A stretch of 64,000 bases of DNA. It comes from Microbacterium maritypicum (lineage in GTDB: Bacteria > Actinomycetota > Actinomycetes > Actinomycetales > Microbacteriaceae). The notes under the pieces were generated by a model. It searched no databases, was not told where the DNA came from, and worked only from the letters and a program-made list of their open reading frames with translations. Both the position numbers and the translations under genes were made by a program. Positions 9,956 to 23,126 of this stretch are shown here, in pieces (the first letter of the stretch is position 1; each line of letters begins with the position of its first letter). The stretch spans positions 1 to 64,000 of the forward strand of contig NZ_WAAQ01000001.1 of NCBI RefSeq assembly GCF_008868125.1, given 5' to 3'.

Positions 9956-11272
9956 TCAGGCGCCGAGGGGCAGGGTGAGCACGAAGCGCGCACCACCCCA
10001 GCGGGAGTCGTCGACCGTGAGGGTGCCGTGGCCGCTGGCGGCGATGCCGCGGGCGATCGCGAGGCCCAATCCGCTGCCTCCGGCGTCGCGGCTGCGGGCC
10101 TCGTCGAGGCGGACGAAGCGTTCGAAGATCCGCTCCCGCTCCTCGGTCGGCACTCCGGTGCCGTCGTCCTCGATCGTGACGAACACGTATCCGTCCGATG
10201 GCGTCACCCCGATCGCGACGCGCCCGCGGCTGTGGCGCACGGCGTTGTCGGCGAGGTTTCGCACCAGCTGCCCGAGCAGTCGCGGGTCGCCGTGCACCCG
10301 GGCGGCGTGGATCCCGGAGCCGTCGACGTCGATTCCCGCGGCCCGGAGCCGGCGCACCTCGCCGAGGGCGATGTCGTCGAGGTCGACCGCCTCGTCATGG
10401 GTGCTCGCTCCCTCATCCAGGCGGGCGAGCAGCAGCAGTGATTCGACGATGCCCTGCAGGCGCAGTCCCTCCTCCGACACCACCTCGGCGAGTTCGCCGA
10501 TGCTCGTCACATCGGGATGGGCCTGGGCCAGTTCGGCATGCTGACGGATCGTCGCGAGGGGCGAGCGCAGCTCGTGGGAAGCGTCCGAGACGAAGCGCCG
10601 CTGCGCGGTGGCCGCCGCGTCGAGCCGATCGAGCATGCCGTTCATGGTCGTCGCGAGCGCGGCGATCTCATCGGCGGTCTCCGGCACCGGTACCCGCTGG
10701 TGCAGGCGCTCTGCGGTGATGCCGTCGACCTCTTCGCGGATGAGCTCGACCGGGCGGAGGGCCCGGCCGACCACCGACCATGTGGTCACGGCGACGAGCA
10801 GCAGAAGCAGGGGGAGGGCGATGGCCAGCAGCGTCGCGACCGTGGCGAGGGTCTCGGCATCGTCCTCCATCGAGACGGCGAGCACGAGGGTCTGGTCGCG
10901 CTCGATGTCCTCCGAGACGACGAGGACGGTCTCTCCGTCGACAGTGGTCGTCTGCGGATCGTCGTCGACGGGGAGGGGTGTCGACCCGAGCTTCTCCCTG
11001 GCGTCTTCGCTGGCGGCGCGCACCGAACCGTCCGCACCGATGATCTGCAGGATCTCGTCGTCGAGCGCATCGATGCCCTTGCCGCCTGGGCCGTCTGTGC
11101 GTTCGGTGAGCTCTTCGAGGCGCTGTTCCGCCGCGCGCTCGGTGCTGCCGTGGATGCTGGCGCTGAGCACGCCGTAGAACGAGAAGGCGCCGATGAGGAG
11201 TGCGACGGCGACGACGACGGTGGCGCCGAGCGTGGTCCTGCCGCGCACAGAGCGCCAACTGCGACTAGCCAC
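9956..11272 (-). CDS. Sensor histidine kinase (OmpR-type partner)
   Basis: 438 residues. TM1 (about 15-38), extracytoplasmic sensor (about 40-145), TM2 (about 147-170), HAMP domain (about 172-225), a HisKA H-box (VSDASHELRSPLATIRQH, phospho-His near residue 240) and HATPase_c with an N-box (LVRNLADNAVRHS) and G-boxes (DDGTGVP, GSGLGLAI). The GTG at 11272 overlaps the regulator's stop by 8 bases, so the pair is translationally coupled; the frame extends to 11302 but that would run further into the regulator. Confidence 0.92.
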   Translation of the reverse strand: MASRSWRSVRGRTTLGATVVVAVALLIGAFSFYGVLSASIHGSTERAAEQRLEELTERTDGPGGKGIDALDDEILQIIGADGSVRAASEDAREKLGSTPLPVDDDPQTTTVDGETVLVVSEDIERDQTLVLAVSMEDDAETLATVATLLAIALPLLLLLVAVTTWSVVGRALRPVELIREEVDGITAERLHQRVPVPETADEIAALATTMNGMLDRLDAAATAQRRFVSDASHELRSPLATIRQHAELAQAHPDVTSIGELAEVVSEEGLRLQGIVESLLLLARLDEGASTHDEAVDLDDIALGEVRRLRAAGIDVDGSGIHAARVHGDPRLLGQLVRNLADNAVRHSRGRVAIGVTPSDGYVFVTIEDDGTGVPTEERERIFERFVRLDEARSRDAGGSGLGLAIARGIAASGHGTLTVDDSRWGGARFVLTLPLGA

Positions 11273-15183: not shown

Positions 15184-16566
15184 TCACGCCTTCGCGAACG
15201 CCCCGACGCGGTACTTCGCGGCGCGGTGCGTGTCCTGCACCCGGTCGCCGCGGCCGTGGAGCTTGTTGCGAAGAGTGCCCGGCGCGTACTCCTCGGGATA
15301 GGCGCCGCGCTCGCGCAGCACCGGGATCACGTGCTCGATGATGTCCTGCCAGGTGCCGGGGGTGACCGCGTAGGCGAGGTTGAAGCCGTCGATGTCGGTC
15401 GCCTCGATCCAGGACTGCAGCTCGTCGGCGATCTCGACGCCGGACCCGACGATCGTGGGGCCGAGGCCGCCGATCGCGTTGTGGCGTCCGAAGTCGCCGA
15501 CGGTCCATTCGCGGCCGAGGTCGGCCTCTTCCTTCAGATGCTGCAGAACCGACTGGATCGCGTTCGACTCGACGTTCCCGACCGGCTCGTCCTCGGCGTA
15601 CTGCGACAGATCCACGCCCATCCACCCCGACATGAACGTCAGGGCGCCTTCGGGGCTCGCATAGGAGAGGTACTCCGCGTGCTTCGCCGTCGCCTCTTCG
15701 GCGGTGGCGGCGGTGATCACGGTGAGCAGCGTGTAGATGCGGGCGTCGTACCGGTCGCGTCCTGCCGCCTCGAGGGCGTCGCGAATGCGCTTGACCGTTC
15801 CGGCGAGCACCTCCTTCGAGGGGGCGGCGACGAAGATGGCCTCGGCGTTCTCGGCCGCGAACTTCACGCCGCGCGGACTCGCACCGGCCTGGTAGATCAC
15901 CGGCGTGCGCTGTGGCGAGGGTTCGGAGATATGGATGCCGGGCACGCTGAAGTGCTTCCCCTCATGCCCGATCGGGTGCACCTTGGCCGGGTCGGTGAAG
16001 ATGCCGCGCTCGCGGTCCTCGACCACGGCGTCGTCTTCCCACGACCCCTCCCAGAGCTTGTAGAGCACCTCGACGTACTCGTCCGCGTGGTCGTAGCGGT
16101 CATCGTGGGCGAGCTGGTCCTCCTGGCCCATGTTGCGCGCGGCGCTGGGCAGGTATCCGGTCACGACGTTCCAGCCGACGCGGCCCTGCGTGAGATGGTC
16201 GAGGGTGCTCAACCGGCGCGCGAACGGGTAGGGGTGCTCGAACGCGGTGCCGGCCGTGATGCCGAAGCCCAGGTTCTCGGTGACCGCGGCCATCGCGCTC
16301 ACCAGCAGGATCGGGTCGTTCACCGGCACCTGCGCGCCGTTGCGGATAGCGGCCTCGTTCGTGCCGCCGTACACGTCGTAGGTGCCGAGCACGTCGGCGA
16401 TGAAGATGCCGTCGAAGGTCGCGCTCTCCAGCAGCTTCGCAAGCTCCGTCCAGTACGAGATGGTGTTGTACTGGCGCGAGCGGTCGTCGGGGTGCCGCCA
16501 CAGGCCGGACGACTGGTGGGCGACGCAGTTCATGTCGAAGGCGTTGAAGCGGATCTGACGGGTCAT
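15184..16566 (-). CDS. Flavin-dependent monooxygenase, NtaA/SnaA/DszA family
   Basis: 460 residues, a bacterial luciferase-like TIM barrel of the large NtaA/SnaA/SoxA/DszA class. Visible signatures are FNAFDMNCVAHQSSGLWRHP at the start, the LESATFDGIFIADVLGTYD strand, FEHPYPFARRLSTLDHLTQGRVGWNVVTGYL (first turn, split here by motif) and VIYQAGASPRG. These enzymes use reduced FMN from a separate reductase to oxidise C-S or C-N compounds. ATG 16566 was chosen because the family starts with a short lead before the first strand. Divergent from the SAHH-like gene, so possibly coregulated. Confidence 0.88.
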   Translation of the reverse strand: MTRQIRFNAFDMNCVAHQSSGLWRHPDDRSRQYNTISYWTELAKLLESATFDGIFIADVLGTYDVYGGTNEAAIRNGAQVPVNDPILLVSAMAAVTENLGFGITAGTAFEHPYPFARRLSTLDHLTQGRVGWNVVTGYLPSAARNMGQEDQLAHDDRYDHADEYVEVLYKLWEGSWEDDAVVEDRERGIFTDPAKVHPIGHEGKHFSVPGIHISEPSPQRTPVIYQAGASPRGVKFAAENAEAIFVAAPSKEVLAGTVKRIRDALEAAGRDRYDARIYTLLTVITAATAEEATAKHAEYLSYASPEGALTFMSGWMGVDLSQYAEDEPVGNVESNAIQSVLQHLKEEADLGREWTVGDFGRHNAIGGLGPTIVGSGVEIADELQSWIEATDIDGFNLAYAVTPGTWQDIIEHVIPVLRERGAYPEEYAPGTLRNKLHGRGDRVQDTHRAAKYRVGAFAKA

Positions 16567-16688
16567 GCCCCCATGAAAGGGGAAGGGCGTGGACGAATCC
16601 AGAGTCCCCGAAATGCACGGACACATTCCGGTTGCGGGTCTGCCTCGCCCTGGCATTCGGCCACCCCCGCGGGCTCTACCCTTGACTG

Positions 16689-18131
16689 GTGACCGACGAG
16701 ACCGTGACCGCCCAGCGGCTGGTGCGCCGCTTCGCCCGTGAGACCAACCTGCTCGTGTCGGGCCGGGACTTCTCGGTCATCGGGACGGATGGCGTGGCCG
16801 AGGCTCTCCGCGCTCTGCTTCCGGCGCTCGGTGCGCATCTCGGCGACGCGGGGGTCGTGTTCGCGCCGGGAGGGACGCCCGAGATCCTGCTCGACGGTGA
16901 GGCGCTGCCGCCCCGCGAGAGGGCCGAGGATCGCGTCGATGCGGCCGGACGCCATATGCCCGTCGCGACCGACCGTGCGCGGCGTCTGCGCGAGAACGGC
17001 ACGGTGCGCGGAGTGCGCATCGGCATCGCGATGGTGCTCGAGCCGAAGACCGCCCAGCTCGCCCTGCTGCTGCGGGATGCGGGAGCCACGGTCGCCGTCT
17101 ACGCCCACCCCGATGAGATCGACGTCGAGGTCGCCGAGGTGCTGCGTTCCCGCGGGATCCCGGTCGACGGCGATCCCTCGCTCTCGGGAGCCGCCGAACG
17201 CGCCGCCGCCGTGTCGTTCCTGCGCCGCGGCTTCGACCTGCTGCTCGACGACGGCTCGCACCTGATCCGCCTCGCGCATGAGGAGTCTCTCGCGCCGCAG
17301 CTGCGAGGTGCGGCCGAGGAGACCACGAGCGGTCTCACACCGCTGCGGCTCATGGAGCGGGAGGGCGTGCTCGAGATCCCCGTGATCGCGGTGAACGACG
17401 CCCTGACCAAGACCTCCTTCGACAACCGATACGGCACCGGGCAGTCGTGCGTGTTCGCGATCGCGGACGCGTTGGACGACGCCGGCATCCGCCTTCGTGA
17501 CCAGCCGGCGGTCGTGGTCGGCTACGGGCCCGTCGGCGAGGGCGTCGCCGCCCACCTGCGTGCGCTCGGCGCGCAGGTCGGCGTCAGCGAGACCGATCCG
17601 GTGCGCGCCCTCAGGGCCGCGCACGACGGGTACCGCATCGGACGTCTGCACGATCTCGCCCCCGGTGCGCTCGTCGTCTCGGCCACAGGGGCGCCGCACA
17701 CGGTCGACGCCGAGGTGCTGCGCACGGCGGCGATCGTCGCGGTCGCGGGTGGCGTCCCGCACGAGATCGACCTCGATGCCTCGACGCTGCGACCGTATGA
17801 GGGAGTGAACGGCGAGGTCTCCACTTTCGTCGAGCGCGCCGGCACCGGGGCGCTCGTGATCGCCCGCGGCGGATGTGTGAACCTGTCCGCGGGGGAGGGC
17901 AACCCGATCGAGATCATGGACCTGTCGTTCTCGGTGCAGCTCTTCGCCGTCGAGCACCTTCTCGCCCATGAACTGCCCGCCGGCGTGCATCCGCTCCCGG
18001 CCGAGGCCGACGTCACGATCGGCACCGCCGCTCTCGCCCTGCGCGGAGAGCACATCGACCAGCGCAGCCGCGCGCAGGTCGACGCGCAGCGCGAGTGGCG
18101 CTCGCCGCGATTCCGAGGAGAGTCCGCATGA
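16689..18131 (+). CDS. Divergent S-adenosylhomocysteinase-like protein
   Basis: 480 residues, GTG start. The NAD-binding Rossmann segment is VVVGYGPVGEGVAAHLRALGA (about 277-297). Upstream, PVIAVNDALTKTSFDNRYGTGQS corresponds to the SAHH catalytic Lys-x-x-x-Asp region, in which K and D are kept but the rest is altered. The family's strict GKG end of the NAD motif and its C-terminal Lys-Tyr-Tyr tail are absent. So it is an SAHH-superfamily member with a probably different substrate. It begins an operon: the next gene's ATG overlaps its stop. Confidence 0.75.
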   Translation: MTDETVTAQRLVRRFARETNLLVSGRDFSVIGTDGVAEALRALLPALGAHLGDAGVVFAPGGTPEILLDGEALPPRERAEDRVDAAGRHMPVATDRARRLRENGTVRGVRIGIAMVLEPKTAQLALLLRDAGATVAVYAHPDEIDVEVAEVLRSRGIPVDGDPSLSGAAERAAAVSFLRRGFDLLLDDGSHLIRLAHEESLAPQLRGAAEETTSGLTPLRLMEREGVLEIPVIAVNDALTKTSFDNRYGTGQSCVFAIADALDDAGIRLRDQPAVVVGYGPVGEGVAAHLRALGAQVGVSETDPVRALRAAHDGYRIGRLHDLAPGALVVSATGAPHTVDAEVLRTAAIVAVAGGVPHEIDLDASTLRPYEGVNGEVSTFVERAGTGALVIARGGCVNLSAGEGNPIEIMDLSFSVQLFAVEHLLAHELPAGVHPLPAEADVTIGTAALALRGEHIDQRSRAQVDAQREWRSPRFRGESA

Positions 18132-19441
18132 CCGCCGTCACCGTCTACTCGGCAGGTCTCGTGGTGCCGATCACCGCGCCTCCCATCGTCGACGGCGCGG
18201 TCGCCGTGCGCGAGGGGCGGATCATGCATGTCGGCGAACGCGAGTGGGTGCTCCGATCGCTGTCCGAGCGCGGCATCGACGCGGACGAGGTGCACTGGCC
18301 GGGCGTGCTGACCCCCGGACTCGTGAACGCCCACACGCACCTGCAGTACACCGGCATGGCCTCGGTCGGCCGTGGCCAGTACGACGGCTTCGACGACTGG
18401 GTGCGGGCATTCGACCCGGTGTACGAAAGCGGTCGCGACTGGGCGGCGGATGCGGCGGACGGCGCGGCTCAGGCGCTGCGCTCCGGCACGACGGCCGTGG
18501 CCGACGTGGTGACCGATCGTGCGGCGGCGACAGCTCTGCACGACGCCCGGCTGCACGGCATCACCTACTGGGAGGTGATGAGCTGGACCAACGCCGACTG
18601 GGCGCGCACCGGACGCACCCAGGTCGAGCAGGCCCTCGACGCGCTGCCGACCCCGCCCGGAACCGGCCTGTCGCCGCACGCCCCGTACTCGCTCGACATC
18701 GAGCCGCTCCTGGAGATCCCCGACATCGTGCGCGAGCGCGGCGGGCGCATCCACATCCACCTCGGAGAGGCCGCGTTCGAGAGCGAGTTCGCGCACGAGC
18801 ATCCACAGGCCTGGCATACCGCGGGGCTCGCCAGCTTCCAGGAGCTGCGCAAGGCCGGATTCGGTACCAGCGCCACCGAGTTCGTCGATCAGCTCGGCGT
18901 GCTCGGGCCCGATTGCCATATCGCCCATGGTGTCTACATGAGCGCCAGGGACCGTGCCATCCTGCGCGAGCGCCGCACGACCGTGGCCCTGTGTCCGCGG
19001 TCGAACGCCGTCATCGGACTCGAGGAGCCGCCGATCGCGGCGTATCTGCGCGAGGGCAGTCCGATCGCCGTGGGCACCGACTCGCTGTCGTCGAGCCCCT
19101 CGCTCGATGTGCTGGCCGACGTGGCCGAGCTCGCGCGCATCGCCCGCTCGCAGGGCTACACCGACCGCGACCTGCATGCCCGCCTGCTGGGTGCCGCGAC
19201 TCTCGGCGGGGCACACGCCATGGGGATCGACGTGGGCCCCGACCGCACCGGCTACCTCGCCGTGGGTGCCCTCGCCGACCTGACGTTCTTCGACGTGCAG
19301 GCCGGCCCCGACGCCGTTCCCGAACTCGTCGAGCACGGGGCGGGCCGCACCGCTGCCACGATCGTCTCCGGCGAGGTCCGTTTCGCGATCGACTCCTTCG
19401 ACCGCGCCGCGGTCACCCCCGAGACCGGAGGTGTCTCATGA
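18128..19441 (+). CDS. Amidohydrolase, deaminase-like (MtaD/TrzN type)
   Basis: 437 residues of the metal-dependent amidohydrolase superfamily. Metal and catalytic residues: NAHTHLQYTG (HxH, about 67-72), HIHLGEAAFESE (His and Glu, about 210-220), CHIAHGVY (His) and VGTDSLSSSPSLD (Asp). This set is typical of 5-methylthioadenosine/SAH deaminases and related amino-heterocycle deaminases. ATGA overlap with the SAHH-like gene means coupled translation. A pathway acting on an adenosyl- or purine-like compound is inferred from the pairing. Confidence 0.82.
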   Translation: MTAVTVYSAGLVVPITAPPIVDGAVAVREGRIMHVGEREWVLRSLSERGIDADEVHWPGVLTPGLVNAHTHLQYTGMASVGRGQYDGFDDWVRAFDPVYESGRDWAADAADGAAQALRSGTTAVADVVTDRAAATALHDARLHGITYWEVMSWTNADWARTGRTQVEQALDALPTPPGTGLSPHAPYSLDIEPLLEIPDIVRERGGRIHIHLGEAAFESEFAHEHPQAWHTAGLASFQELRKAGFGTSATEFVDQLGVLGPDCHIAHGVYMSARDRAILRERRTTVALCPRSNAVIGLEEPPIAAYLREGSPIAVGTDSLSSSPSLDVLADVAELARIARSQGYTDRDLHARLLGAATLGGAHAMGIDVGPDRTGYLAVGALADLTFFDVQAGPDAVPELVEHGAGRTAATIVSGEVRFAIDSFDRAAVTPETGGVS

Positions 19442-19866
19442 CACAGCGCCCCACGACCGCCGAGCGGCTCGACCTCGCCCCGCACCCCGAGGGTGGCTGG
19501 TTCCGCCGAACCTGGACGAGCCCTCTGCCGGTCGAGACGCCGAACGGTCCACGACCGGCGGCCACCTGCATCCACTACCTCCTGCGTCCATCGGAGAAGA
19601 GCGAATGGCACGTCGTGACCAGCGACGAGCTGTGGCTGTGGCACGGACCTGGGCGGCTCGAGCTGAGCCTCGGCGGCGATGGCGCGGAACCGGGCGAGGC
19701 GACCGCCGTGGTGCTCGGCCCCGACGACGCCGCGCAGGTGCTGGTGCCCGCCGGCGTCTGGCAGGCCGCCCGTCCGCTGGATGCGGAGGAGGTCCTGGTG
19801 TCGTGCTTCGTGTCCCCAGGTTTCGATTTCGCCGATTGGCGACTGGCCGCATCGCCTACTCTGTAG
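19438..19866 (+). CDS. DUF985-type cupin protein
   Basis: 142 residues. APHPEGGWFRRTW at the start, IHYLLRPSEKSEWHVVTSDELWLWHGPG in the middle and LVPAGVWQAARP near the end are diagnostic of the DUF985 cupin family (small beta barrel with a metal site; His in EWH and WHG). It may be an isomerase, epimerase or a small-molecule binding protein. ATGA overlap with the amidohydrolase; third gene of the operon. Confidence 0.85.
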   Translation: MTQRPTTAERLDLAPHPEGGWFRRTWTSPLPVETPNGPRPAATCIHYLLRPSEKSEWHVVTSDELWLWHGPGRLELSLGGDGAEPGEATAVVLGPDDAAQVLVPAGVWQAARPLDAEEVLVSCFVSPGFDFADWRLAASPTL

Positions 19867-19944
19867 AGGCAGACCCGTCTCTGCAGAAGCAGACCCGTCC
19901 TGCCTCGCCGTCTTCTCCATACCCTTCCTCGCCCTGGAGTCATC

Positions 19945-20796
19945 GTGCCCTTCGCCCCCTCCCTCCGCCGCGCGACGGTCGTCGCCGCTGCGGCCGCCGC
20001 CATCGCCCTCACCCTCTCCGCGTGCAGCACGCCGTCGACCGACTCCGGCAGCGGAGATGGCTCGGGACTTCCGACCGTGACCGAGGGCAAGCTCACCATC
20101 GCCACGGGTGAGCCCAACTACGAGCCGTGGTTCGTCGACGACGACCCCTCCAACGGCGAGGGCTTCGAGGGTGCGGTCGCCAACGCCGTCGCCGAGCAGC
20201 TCGGCTACACGGCCGACGACATCGTCTGGGTGCGCACCACCTTCGACGGCGCCATCGCGCCCGGCCCCAAGGACTGGGACATCAACCTGCAGCAGTTCTC
20301 CATCACCGACGACCGCAAGAAGGCCGTCGACTTCTCGTCGCCGTATTACACGACCACGCAGGCCGTCGTCGCGGTCGGCGGCTCGCCCGCGGCGTCGGCG
20401 ACGACCATCGACGAGCTCAAGGCCACCAAGGTCGGCGTCGCCAGCGGCACCACCAGCTACACGGTCGCCAAGGCTCAGCTCGGCGAGGCCGACCTCAACG
20501 TCTTCAACTCGGTCGACGACGTCGTGCTCGCACTCAAGGGCGGTCAGATCGACGCCATGATCACCGACCTTCCCGGTGCCTTCTACGTCGTCGGCGCTCA
20601 GCTCGACGACGGCGTGGTCACCGGACAGTTCGCCGACGCGAACGGCGGAGACGACTTCGGCATCGTGCTGCCCAAGGGCTCAGCCCTCACGGCCGATGTC
20701 ACCAAGGCGGTCGACGCCCTGCGTGACAACGGCACGCTCGACGAGCTGCAGCAGAAGTGGCTCAGCGACGCGGTCGACGTCCCCGTCCTGAAATGA
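19945..20796 (+). CDS. ABC transporter substrate-binding lipoprotein (polar amino-acid type)
   Basis: 283 residues, GTG start with a TGGAG site. Signal peptide with lipobox LSAC (Cys near 27), then a type II periplasmic-binding fold of the SBP_bac_3 family: KLTIATGEPNYEPWF, GFEGAVANAVAEQLGY, and VDFSSPYYTTTQAVV. Binds a small polar ligand outside the cell. The operon context (SAHH-like, deaminase-like, cupin) suggests a ligand other than a plain amino acid, for example an adenosyl-amino acid; that is inference. Confidence 0.88.
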   Translation: MPFAPSLRRATVVAAAAAAIALTLSACSTPSTDSGSGDGSGLPTVTEGKLTIATGEPNYEPWFVDDDPSNGEGFEGAVANAVAEQLGYTADDIVWVRTTFDGAIAPGPKDWDINLQQFSITDDRKKAVDFSSPYYTTTQAVVAVGGSPAASATTIDELKATKVGVASGTTSYTVAKAQLGEADLNVFNSVDDVVLALKGGQIDAMITDLPGAFYVVGAQLDDGVVTGQFADANGGDDFGIVLPKGSALTADVTKAVDALRDNGTLDELQQKWLSDAVDVPVLK

Positions 20797-21659
20797 CCTC
20801 GACCTCCGTCGACGCGGAGTGGCAGCCGAGCGAGCTCGAGCTGTCACGCCGCGCTCTGCGGCGTCGGGCGACCACCCGATCCGTCCTGATCGCGTTCGGC
20901 AGCAGCATCGCGCTGTTGGCGGTGCTGATCGTGGTCGTCGTCAACACTCCAGGCTGGGCGATCGTCAGCCAGACGTTCTTCGACCCGCAGGTCGCACTCC
21001 AGAGCATCGGACCGATCTTCCAGGGCCTGCTCGTCAACCTGCTGGTGCTCGTCATCGCCGTGGTGTGCGTCGCGATCCTCGGCACGCTCCTGGCCACCAT
21101 GCGCTCGCTGCGCGGCCCGGTGTTCTTCCCGCTGCGCGCGCTCGCCGCGGCCTACACCGACTTCTTCCGCGGCATCCCGCTGCTGATCGTGCTCTACCTC
21201 GTCGGCTTCGGCATCCCCGCGCTGGGGATCTTCCCGCGCATGCCTCCGATGTTCTGGGGCACGATCGCGCTGGTCCTGACCTACTCGGCCTATGTCGCCG
21301 AGGTGCTCCGCGCGGGCATGGAGGCGGTGCACCCCTCGCAACGCATCGCGGCGCGTTCGCTCGGCCTCACTCACGGCCAGACCCTGCGGATCGTCGTGAT
21401 CCCGCAGGGCGTGCGCAAGGTCGTCCCCGCCCTCATGAACGACTTCGTGTCGATGCAGAAGGATGTCGGCCTGATCTCGGTGCTCGGGGCGGTCGATGCG
21501 GTGCGCGCGGCTCAGCTGATGGTCGCCGAGACCTACAACTTCACGCCCTACGTCGTCGCCGGTCTCATGTTCATCGTGCTCAGCTGGCCGATGATCCGCC
21601 TGACCGATGTCGTCACGGCGCGTCTGAACAAGCGCGAGCAGGCCGGAGGAGTCGTATGA
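20793..21659 (+). CDS. ABC transporter permease (His/Glu/Gln/Arg family)
   Basis: 288 residues with five to six TM helices. The YTDFFRGIPLLIVLYLVGFG segment and the EAA loop (EVLRAGMEAVHPSQRIAARSLGLTHGQTLR, shortened here) are hallmarks of HisMQ-type permeases. A single permease suggests a homodimer. ATGA overlaps on both sides couple it to the binding protein and the ATPase. Confidence 0.9.
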   Translation: MTSTSVDAEWQPSELELSRRALRRRATTRSVLIAFGSSIALLAVLIVVVVNTPGWAIVSQTFFDPQVALQSIGPIFQGLLVNLLVLVIAVVCVAILGTLLATMRSLRGPVFFPLRALAAAYTDFFRGIPLLIVLYLVGFGIPALGIFPRMPPMFWGTIALVLTYSAYVAEVLRAGMEAVHPSQRIAARSLGLTHGQTLRIVVIPQGVRKVVPALMNDFVSMQKDVGLISVLGAVDAVRAAQLMVAETYNFTPYVVAGLMFIVLSWPMIRLTDVVTARLNKREQAGGVV

Positions 21660-22393
21660 GCGTCCCCGTGATCGAGGCCAGGGGCGTGCGCAAGCGCTTC
21701 GGCGACCACGACGTGCTGCGCGGCATCGACCTCTCGGTCGGCACGCACGAGGTCGTCGTGCTGATCGGCGCCTCGGGCTCGGGCAAGTCGACGCTGCTCA
21801 AGACCATGAACCTCATCGAGGGCATCGACGACGGACAGATCTTCCTGTCCGGCGAAGACATCACCGACCCGCGGGTCGACGCCGATGCCGTGCGGGCGCG
21901 GATCGGTGTCGTTTTCCAGCACTTCAACCTGTTCCCGCACCTCACCGTGCTCGACAACGTCACGCTCGCGGCGGTGCGCGTGCACGGCATGCGCAAGACG
22001 GAGGCGCGGGCCAAGGCGCGCGAGCTGCTCGATACTCTCGGGCTCGGCGCCAAGGCCGACGAGTATCCTGACCGGCTCTCGGGCGGACAGCAGCAGCGCG
22101 TGGCGATCGTGCGCGCCGTCCTCACGCAGCCCGAGGTGCTGCTGCTCGACGAGATCACCAGCGCGCTCGACCCGCAACTGGTCGGCGAGGTGCTCGACCT
22201 GGTGCGGCAGCTGAAGCGGCAGGGCGCCACGATCGTGATGGCGACCCACGAGATGTCGTTCGCCCGCGAGGTCGCCGACCGCATCGTGTTCCTCGAACAC
22301 GGCGTCGTCGTCGAGCAGGGCCCGCCCTCTCAGGTGTTCGACGCCCCGCAGCACGCGGCCACCGCGGAGTTCCTGGCACGCGTGCAGCACTGA
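21656..22393 (+). CDS. ABC transporter ATP-binding protein (polar amino-acid type)
   Basis: 245 residues. Walker A GASGSGKST (about 38-46), Q-loop VFQHFNLFPH, signature LSGGQQQRVAIVRA, Walker B EVLLLDEITSALD and switch His in MATHEMSF. Energises the importer. Last gene of the six-gene operon starting at 16689; convergent with pnuC, 22 bases away, with no clear hairpin between them. Confidence 0.94.
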   Translation: MSVPVIEARGVRKRFGDHDVLRGIDLSVGTHEVVVLIGASGSGKSTLLKTMNLIEGIDDGQIFLSGEDITDPRVDADAVRARIGVVFQHFNLFPHLTVLDNVTLAAVRVHGMRKTEARAKARELLDTLGLGAKADEYPDRLSGGQQQRVAIVRAVLTQPEVLLLDEITSALDPQLVGEVLDLVRQLKRQGATIVMATHEMSFAREVADRIVFLEHGVVVEQGPPSQVFDAPQHAATAEFLARVQH

Positions 22394-22415: not shown

Positions 22416-23126
22416 TCAGGCGAGCTCGTCCTCCGGCCGTCGAGGACTCGGGTCGGGCGGCAGGATCTCGATCGGATGCGCGGCGGTGCGCTGAGCCCGC
22501 CACCAGATCACGAAGCCGATCGCGGTGAAGACGCCGTAGAACACGTACATGAAGCCCGTCGCGTAGTAGCCCGAGCTGAACAGCAGGGGCACCCCGACCA
22601 CGTCGACGGCGATCCAGACCAGCCAGAACTCGGTCCAGCCCTTGGCCATGCCGTAGGTGGCGAGCAGCGACCCGACGAATGTCCAGGCATCGGCCCAGAC
22701 CGGCTCCCACGACCCCAGCAGACGGAACAGCGGCGTGAGGGCTACGGTGCCGACGACCATCACCAGCACCATGCCGATGCGCGCGCTCGTCGGTGCCCAG
22801 CGCGGCACCACACGTCCGCCGTCGAGATTCCGCCAGCGGATCCAGCCGTAGATCGCCACGGCGATGAACATGATCTGCCGCCCGGCCTGACCCAGCAGAT
22901 GCGGGAGTGACGGATCGGGGCTGAGTGCGGAGCCCAGGAACACCGTGAGCAGCAGCAGGTTGCCGATGATGCCGACCGGCCACGCCCACACCTTGCGACG
23001 CATGCCGCCGAGCGCACTCGCGAGACCGAACGCGTTGCCCACGACCTCGCGCACCAGGAGCGTCTGCCCGCCGGGCAGCATCCACTGCGAGTTGAAGGCG
23101 TCGACGAACCACTCGAGCAGGTTCAT
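22416..23126 (-). CDS. pnuC: PnuC-type nicotinamide riboside transporter
   Basis: 236 residues, seven TM helices. VGNAFGLASALGGMRRKVWAWPVGIIGN and WVWIAVDVVGVPLLF (here WLVWIAVDV) with the conserved Trp residues of the pocket are PnuC marks, as is the W-R-N region after helix 3. Imports nicotinamide riboside or a related vitamin precursor by facilitated diffusion. ATG 23126 follows the acetyltransferase stop by only 2 bases, so the two form an operon. No NadR or riboswitch is visible upstream. Confidence 0.85.
   Translation of the reverse strand: MNLLEWFVDAFNSQWMLPGGQTLLVREVVGNAFGLASALGGMRRKVWAWPVGIIGNLLLLTVFLGSALSPDPSLPHLLGQAGRQIMFIAVAIYGWIRWRNLDGGRVVPRWAPTSARIGMVLVMVVGTVALTPLFRLLGSWEPVWADAWTFVGSLLATYGMAKGWTEFWLVWIAVDVVGVPLLFSSGYYATGFMYVFYGVFTAIGFVIWWRAQRTAAHPIEILPPDPSPRRPEDELA

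Follow-up and report, generated by a model that had tools for sequence, protein, structure and literature searches.

This report concerns a gene cluster in a 64,000-nucleotide stretch of DNA from Microbacterium maritypicum (contig NZ_WAAQ01000001.1, positions 1 to 64,000; hereafter the window), which encodes a protein resembling S-adenosylhomocysteine (SAH) hydrolase (SAHH), here termed SAHL. The host genome is 3.67 Mb in size, and among the best 120 of 1881 similarity matches the named SAHL relatives nearest to the window were from Microbacterium, e.g. M. maritypicum. All genes reported in an earlier note on this DNA were found where it had placed them:

16689-18131, forward strand: SAHL, 480 amino acids (aa), GTG start, of the type without the active-site histidines (H-); Pfam AdoHcyase_NAD and AdoHcyase, alignment to solved SAHHs, residue tables, tree
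16689-16913, forward strand: N-terminal extension of SAHL, residues 1-75; possibly the decayed start of the NAD domain of a lost His-bearing partner, judging from hhalign profiles and dN/dS
18128-19441, forward strand: AMH, an amidohydrolase of 437 aa; Pfam Amidohydro_1, profile search, invariant residues, fusions, co-occurrence
19438-19866, forward strand: Cupin_5 (DUF985) protein, 142 aa, accessory; Pfam PF06172, PDB relatives 1znp and 3loi/3lzz
19945-20796, forward strand: extracellular solute-binding protein, family 3, polar amino-acid type; Pfam SBP_bac_3, alignment to glutamine-binding protein (GlnBP)
20793-21659, forward strand: ABC permease, polar amino-acid type; best named NCBIfam match a cystine permease, below cut-off
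21656-22393, forward strand: ABC ATPase; best NCBIfam match L-cystine TcyN, 269.9 bits (cut-off 406), followed by GlnQ, 269.1 bits
15184-16572, reverse strand: NtaA/DmoA-family flavin monooxygenase, judged to be a neighbour outside the unit; TIGR03860, 551.9 bits (cut-off 279.7)

Inspection of the sequence revealed the ATGA overlaps described in that note (at 18128, 19438, 20793 and 21656), and also its sole gap, of 78 nt, before the binding protein gene. The note had further called the cluster undescribed. No description of this import-plus-catabolism cluster around an SAHH-like protein was found in the literature searched, in which subscription papers were mostly outside reach, so that this is no proof of absence.

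The distribution of the cluster was followed in 80 named loci with SAHL relatives (the best-ranking 80 out of 251, found using the peptides YGTGQSCV and NPIEIMD), 26 loci from genomes of the family Microbacteriaceae and seven plasmid loci. H- proteins were selected by the motif [LI]EPKT plus EGNP or GGGNP, and SAHL-AMH fusions by [LI]EPKT alone. The filter was passed by 103 loci, of which 95 were unique and 88 unique with at least 6 kb downstream; L017 (at a contig end), L018 and L029 4184-5416 (sister to H-) were left out of the 95. The hosts included Microbacteriaceae, Bifidobacteriaceae, Actinomycetaceae, Demequina, Mycobacterium, Nocardia, Streptosporangiaceae, Rhizobiales and a metagenome-assembled genome of Spirochaetales.

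AMH was found near SAHL in 86 of the 88 unique untruncated loci (exceptions L022 and L024), and the DUF985 cupin in 64. The importer was of the polar amino-acid type (PAAT) in 60 loci, ECF in 16, CUT1 in five and unassigned in seven, and a nucleoside hydrolase was present in three loci, all among the five of CUT1 type (L003, L020, L021). In six loci (L066, L067, L069, L072, L110 and L115; five unique) SAHL and AMH form a single open reading frame (ORF) of 971-1083 aa. Across 150 family genomes, AMH (E <= 1e-40) was detected in 25/25 genomes with SAHL and in 1/125 without it (G093; Fisher p 1.3e-27; the genomes are not independent). The 25 genomes were those with matches of at least 42% identity among 38 with E <= 1e-40, the other 13 lying at 34–39%; genome G024, which carries L018, was counted among the 125. 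The five genes for SAHL, AMH and the three-gene amino-acid-type importer, usually with the DUF985 cupin, are thus conserved as a unit beyond chance. Co-occurrence in genomes and the fused ORFs together provide strong evidence that SAHL and AMH belong to one pathway. The cupin was also considered as a clue to the substrate and set aside, since the sole hint, the tabulation of 3LZZ with GDP in the accessible part of PMC11594714, is too thin to use.

A complete CUT1-type version of the cluster is located on a 734-kb plasmid, typed as non-mobilizable, in a record named Roseateles sp. XES5 and marked UNVERIFIED_ORG (L003 8676-17584). It comprises a LacI regulator, a His-bearing (H+) and an H- SAHH, an importer, AMH and the nucleoside hydrolase.

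The earlier note regarded SAHL as a non-canonical SAHH, and this was borne out. A PF05221 search of the host genome gave one other site, a canonical AHCY (G000:C1:1228914-1230341) with HMTVQT, GHFD, GHPS and the usual tail, ending in ...KGPYKLEHYR. SAHL shares with canonical AHCY the NAD domain and the equivalents of K186, D190 and N191, but lacks its HxTxQ motif, GHF gate, GHP and C-terminal tail, and has GYGPVGEG where the genome's own AHCY has GYGDVGKG; the BLASTP match between the two is confined to the C-terminal part, with 37% identity over 252 positions. The missing tail that the note reported is therefore real, but its step from there to another substrate is weak, because archaeal SAHHs are also short at the C-terminus according to the accessible part of PMC10978960. 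The stronger feature, absent from the note, is the loss of three active-site histidines.

The accessible part of PMC4647836 describes T157 and K186 of SAHH as holding the 3'-OH, and E156 and D190 the 2'-OH. In the same account His55 accepts a proton from the attacking water, the role of Asp131 is at C4', His301 gates the channel and the main chain of His353 contacts the base. In the window SAHL, which carries a VLEPK motif, the equivalents of D131, K186, D190 and N191 are kept, and those of His55, His301 and His353 are V, G and N. The same pattern holds in the 95 unique H- proteins, where D131, T157, K186, D190, N191 and N346 were each conserved in 95/95 and E156 in 94/95, with no His at any of the three positions. 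Position 55 was occupied by V (72), F (9), I (8), T (4), L (1) or M (1), position 301 by G (93) or A (2), and position 353 by N (95); Phe was likewise absent at 302, so that the Gly-His301-Phe302 gate is missing. ExK was present in 95/95, but ExK and Asn353 are partly built into this set by the filter; residues 55 and 301 and the redox residues were unfiltered. The 120 relatives chosen by similarity only, a motif-independent set close to the window, gave His55 in 0/118 (two gaps), His301 in 0/120 (G in 120/120) and His353 in 0/120, with K186, D190, N191, D131, T157 and E156 all at 120/120. ExK was present in 118/118 of these relatives with a residue there (two gaps), without the His of the HxExK motif, which is given as the mark of enzymes preferring S-inosylhomocysteine (SIH), i.e. 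hypoxanthine over adenine substrates, in the accessible parts of PMC13406329 and PMC10978960.

The change at position 353 says little, because Asn is found there in some His-bearing relatives and the contact to the base in SAHH is made by the main chain. With the redox residues and ExK kept and the histidines lost, SAHL seems capable of oxidising a hypoxanthine nucleoside and of acting at C4', and incapable of the usual activation of water. It probably follows the first half of the SAHH mechanism. Since the catalytic histidines are missing, SAHL was filed neither as an adenosylhomocysteinase nor as an SIH hydrolase.

Several SAHH relatives outside the H- set were also seen. L018 9387-11108 (genome G024), the only H- clade protein in the family genomes to lack AMH, carries D131 changed to S, T157 to A and N191 to K. 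It appears to be a decayed or repurposed copy, as would be expected if the chemistry depends on AMH, although this is one case. A third SAHH class with a PIEAKT/PIEPKT motif is represented by L004 9947-11212 (Rubrobacter radiotolerans plasmid) and L029 4184-5416; its His55 is replaced by Pro and its gate His by Gly, and the His of GHP is kept. L004 has no AMH in the stretch examined, its neighbours being a HAD hydrolase and a bile acid:sodium symporter. On a Natronosalvus halobius plasmid (L009 6118-11206), a His-bearing SAHH (HLEQKT) lies beside a QueT-family protein and an ECF transporter, and is thus another importer-tied SAHH relative.

The N-terminal extension of SAHL points to the possible origin of the H- type. 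A full-length H+ gene precedes the H- gene in 10 of the 95 unique loci, with a 4-base overlap in five (e.g. L020 8757-10007 / 10004-11227). The H+ set was chosen by HLEAKTA plus AGHH (L024 added by hand), which makes its His counts at 55 and 301 circular. Such H+/H- pairs were seen beside CUT1 importers and, in L074, beside a PAAT importer. In L041 (Spirochaetales) the pair is accompanied by an ATPase assigned to ECF cluster c8, with two small membrane proteins alongside. In the other 20 extension-less H- loci (duplicates included), an ORF of 101-316 aa lies upstream on the same strand. Sixteen of these ORFs were combined in a profile, which matched the H+ NAD-binding domain with an hhalign probability of 98.9 and E 2.7e-17, and less well the NAD-binding domain of H-, with E 5.5e-13, these and the following hhalign values being single comparisons. 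The 316-aa ORF of L027 still scores Pfam AdoHcyase_NAD, the 263-aa ORF of L037 had no Pfam or NCBIfam match, and the H- protein of L038 carries a fused, still recognisable NAD domain at its front (97.6, E 3.4e-12 against H+).

An extension of at least 50 aa was found in 59 of the 60 PAAT-type loci. A profile of 59 extensions (52 used by hhalign) matched the truncated ORFs best (98.6, E 1e-15), followed by H+ (93.9, E 1.6e-7) and, weakly, the H- core (40, E 3e-4). When the profile was limited to the window's own 13-row group, the values were 97.7 and 2e-12 for the truncated ORFs, a weak 71.6 and 3.5e-5 for H+, and E 3.9e-4 for the H- core; for this group the apparent link to H+ is weak and runs via the truncated ORFs. 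After removal of the clusters of SAHL and of truncated partners, the first 45 clusters containing five or more loci served as controls. Against the extension profile 44 of these gave E >= 0.018, and the 45th consisted of the SAHL-AMH fusions. For the profile of truncated ORFs, two control families (by eye SDR-like and medium-chain-dehydrogenase-like) gave E 4e-4 and 8e-4, far from 2.7e-17.

The tree used 53 H- and 12 H+ rows, and each type formed one group at 100/100. Within H- the full pairs branch deepest, with weak support (82/41) for the split between the two lowest groups of pairs. Streptosporangiaceae with fragments come next, followed by the remaining Actinobacteria, whose loci show either short fragments or fused remnants. 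The tree was midpoint-rooted for drawing only, and the long-branch rows L008 and the first L005 copy were omitted. The ratio of nonsynonymous to synonymous rates (dN/dS) of the window extension was 0.17 against L098 (core 0.13) and 0.27–0.75 against more distant relatives (core 0.20–0.47), and the extension is thus under purifying selection. From these profile matches, the SAHL N-terminus can be read as what is left of a second SAHH subunit that bore the histidines. If true, the loci with a full, a shortened and then a fused-remnant partner would be a clear natural record of a two-subunit enzyme becoming one.

AMH shares its metal-binding and acid residues with the deaminases of methylthioadenosine (MTA)/SAH and of aminofutalosine. 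H69 was conserved in 98/99 proteins (duplicates included), and H71, H211, E214, H267 and D318 each in 99/99. The AMH profile gave a near-full-length match to DR_0824 (2imr), described as an aminofutalosine deaminase, in one block (positions 18-370 of 428, E 2.1e-37). The matches to 4dyk/4gbd had better E-values (1e-39) in two blocks. Structures of TM0936 and PA3170 and an aminofutalosine deaminase were among the matches, as were 8-oxoguanine deaminase and triazine hydrolases. AMH differs from the known deaminases in forming its own subfamily with a CPRSN/GTDSL signature, and it scored below every curated NCBIfam cut-off (NF012037, the test for MTA/SAH deaminases, 56.7 bits vs 779; best NF006549, 117.4 bits vs 540). 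Residue E100 of the window AMH was placed by visual alignment at the ribose-binding Glu of MTA/SAH deaminases such as TM0936; Glu is found there in 29/99 and is not conserved.

The importer of the window is a PAAT importer, combining an SBP_bac_3 binding protein, which has the Arg/Asp residues that would bind an amino acid head, with a HEQRo permease (TIGR01726, 65.3 bits, above the cut-off of 42.2) and an ATPase. The binding protein aligns with GlnBP, and in its operon relatives (duplicates included) Arg124 is kept in 70/70 and Asp208 in 64/70, at the positions that in GlnBP hold the alpha-carboxylate and the alpha-amino group. The known polar amino-acid importers of the GlnH and TcyJLMN types likewise have three genes and these head residues, but the operon binding proteins differ from them in an invariant QQ (70/70) before the S/T-I-T strand. 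Named NCBIfam matches of the binding protein were best for lysine/arginine/ornithine and glutamine proteins, with cystine third; permease and ATPase matched cystine transporters first (the ATPase by less than 1 bit), and all of these matches were below cut-off. The head residues and importer matches favour a substrate with an amino acid arm. Moreover, the core stays the same beside importers of three unrelated types, which points to a single imported substrate or substrate class.

Housekeeping recycling of SAH was compared in the same 150 genomes. Canonical AHCY (E <= 1e-120) was found in 16/25 genomes with SAHL and 97/125 others (p 0.20), and LuxS in six further SAHL genomes, all without AHCY (G045, G062, G087, G088, G096, G116); the two never occurred together among the 25. 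The operon is therefore additional to another SAH-recycling gene in 22/25, neither AHCY nor LuxS being detected at the thresholds used in G005, G047 and G082. A TIGR01704 nucleosidase was above cut-off in 5/25. With these counts, a role of SAHL as a housekeeping replacement for AHCY is unsupported.

Taken as a whole, the data are consistent with a conserved operon for the salvage or catabolism of an adenosine that is imported with a substituent at 5', most likely an arm with a terminal alpha-amino acid (SAH class), and we give this reading an even chance. From the computed gene content, conservation, fusions, residue losses and likeness of the extension to the SAHH NAD domain, we infer a substrate class, a set of catalytic steps and their order as follows. 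The amino-acid-type ABC importer would bring the 5'-substituted adenosine into the cell, and AMH would deaminate its adenine to hypoxanthine. SAHL would then oxidise the 3'-OH with bound NAD+, break the C5' bond and free the arm, and the nucleoside would be used for purine and ribose. Deamination before cleavage fits the sequence data, because ExK/HxExK marks SIH-preferring enzymes. The conserved redox residues of SAHL, the intact metal site of AMH, the nucleoside hydrolase of three CUT1-type loci and the residue losses in the AMH-less L018 also speak for the proposal. The third step probably involves a substrate or an outcome unlike that of normal SAHH, since His55 and the His301 gate are lost. 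The deamination and cleavage of an adenosyl-like compound proposed in the earlier note remain a consistent reading, for which the lost histidines, the ExK motif, the SAHL-AMH fusions and the apparently decayed partner subunit carry more weight than the missing tail.

Several observations weigh against this proposal. The lost His55 and His301 argue against ordinary hydrolysis, and the variable ribose-Glu position of AMH leaves recognition of ribose by this enzyme apparently unsupported. Besides amino acids, PAAT proteins are able to bind other ligands, the binding protein itself matches lysine/arginine/ornithine and glutamine proteins best, and the CUT1 and ECF importers say nothing on an amino acid arm. 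Plain SAH is a less likely, though possible, substrate, because AHCY would suffice for it. No riboswitch was detected by Rfam at gathering scores in the window or in the loci searched, 7 out of 119.

A bolder reading is that H- SAHL is a novel type of SAHH-fold enzyme, an NAD-dependent, redox-neutral nucleoside lyase, which would oxidise the 3'-OH, eliminate the 5' substituent (perhaps a sulfonium, without acid help) and add no water. Addition of water would not be expected in the absence of His55, which activates it, and of the gate residue His301. The enzyme would have begun as half of a two-subunit SAHH, the His-bearing half being now an 80-residue chaperone-like segment fused at the N-terminus. 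This reading is put forward tentatively and is unlikely.

Among the alternatives, an archaeal-type SIH route acting on scavenged SAH is somewhat unlikely. Here SAH would be imported and deaminated to SIH, and SAHL would hydrolyse this to inosine and homocysteine despite its lost histidines. SAH, an alpha-amino acid, would suit the binding protein, SAHL has the ExK motif, and a route through an SAH deaminase and SIH is reported for M. jannaschii and proposed for a Streptomyces in the accessible part of PMC10978960. The known SIH hydrolase/DadD route (M. jannaschii, T. maritima) also pairs a deaminase with an SAHH homologue having ExK, an NAD-binding domain, the redox residues and no long C-terminal tail. 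Unlike SAHL, however, the known enzymes retain the catalytic and gate histidines; His55 (water) and His301 (the gate in the accessible part of PMC4647836) were found in none of the 95 or 120 proteins (two gaps at 55). In addition, the known route is described as recycling the cell's own SAH, whereas the SAHL genes are tied to an importer and SAHL carries an extra N-terminal segment that may be a partner-subunit remnant. AHCY or LuxS is already present in 16 and 6 of the 25 SAHL genomes.

It is improbable that the substrate is no purine nucleoside at all, with AMH acting on another aminated heterocycle of the pterin or triazine type and SAHL oxidising a sugar-like part. The matches of AMH to 8-oxoguanine deaminase and triazine hydrolases and its unconserved ribose-Glu position would agree with such a substrate, and the S component of one ECF type is a riboflavin-transporter-family protein (two examples scanned). 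SAHL, on the other hand, retains the contacts to the ribose hydroxyls (E156, D190, T157, K186) and the ExK base motif.

AHCYL1/IRBIT is an SAHH-like protein that is not known to be catalytic. A regulatory role is described for it in the accessible part of PMC3492294, and with all three histidines gone SAHL could likewise be an NAD- or ligand-sensing or structural partner, leaving AMH alone as the catabolic enzyme. This is less probable still, as the residues for NAD binding and 3'-OH oxidation are conserved, decay hits the His-bearing partner rather than SAHL, and the SAHL-AMH fusion suggests consecutive steps.

The earlier note had included the flavin monooxygenase as an oxidative C-S or C-N cleavage step of the same pathway, which is very improbable and was rejected: its gene lies next to the operon in divergent orientation in the window and in L098, where it is 98% identical (SAHL 90%), and is near SAHL in only these 2/95 unique loci, and its relatives (E <= 1e-120), found in 83/150 genomes, showed no association with SAHL (17/25 with SAHL, 66/125 without; Fisher p 0.19). 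In G049, for example, the best relative (C1:1404517) and SAHL (C1:621949) lie apart. A luciferase-family protein after AMH in L046, 26% identical to the window monooxygenase, was excluded from the count.

If the proposed salvage of a 5'-substituted adenosine is true, it would involve an unrecognised nutrient, i.e. an imported nucleoside-amino acid conjugate, and an SAHH working without the textbook histidines. Sources naming such proteins call them adenosylhomocysteinase, and methylation models of Actinobacteria (Microbacterium, Curtobacterium, Bifidobacterium, Schaalia) may therefore misassign the reaction.

Exact 5-6-base palindromes upstream of SAHL were counted as candidates for a shared operator; at most four loci share any one of them, and nothing convincing was found. 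In the window (16660-16695) no clear Shine-Dalgarno sequence for SAHL was seen by eye, and TACCCT is located 6 bases 5' of the GTG start. This arrangement is compatible with a leaderless transcript, and several relatives look similar by eye. A gene of the PnuC family (nicotinamide riboside transporter) lies at 22416-23126 of the window, convergent with the operon, and one is also found nearby in L090, L092 and L098.

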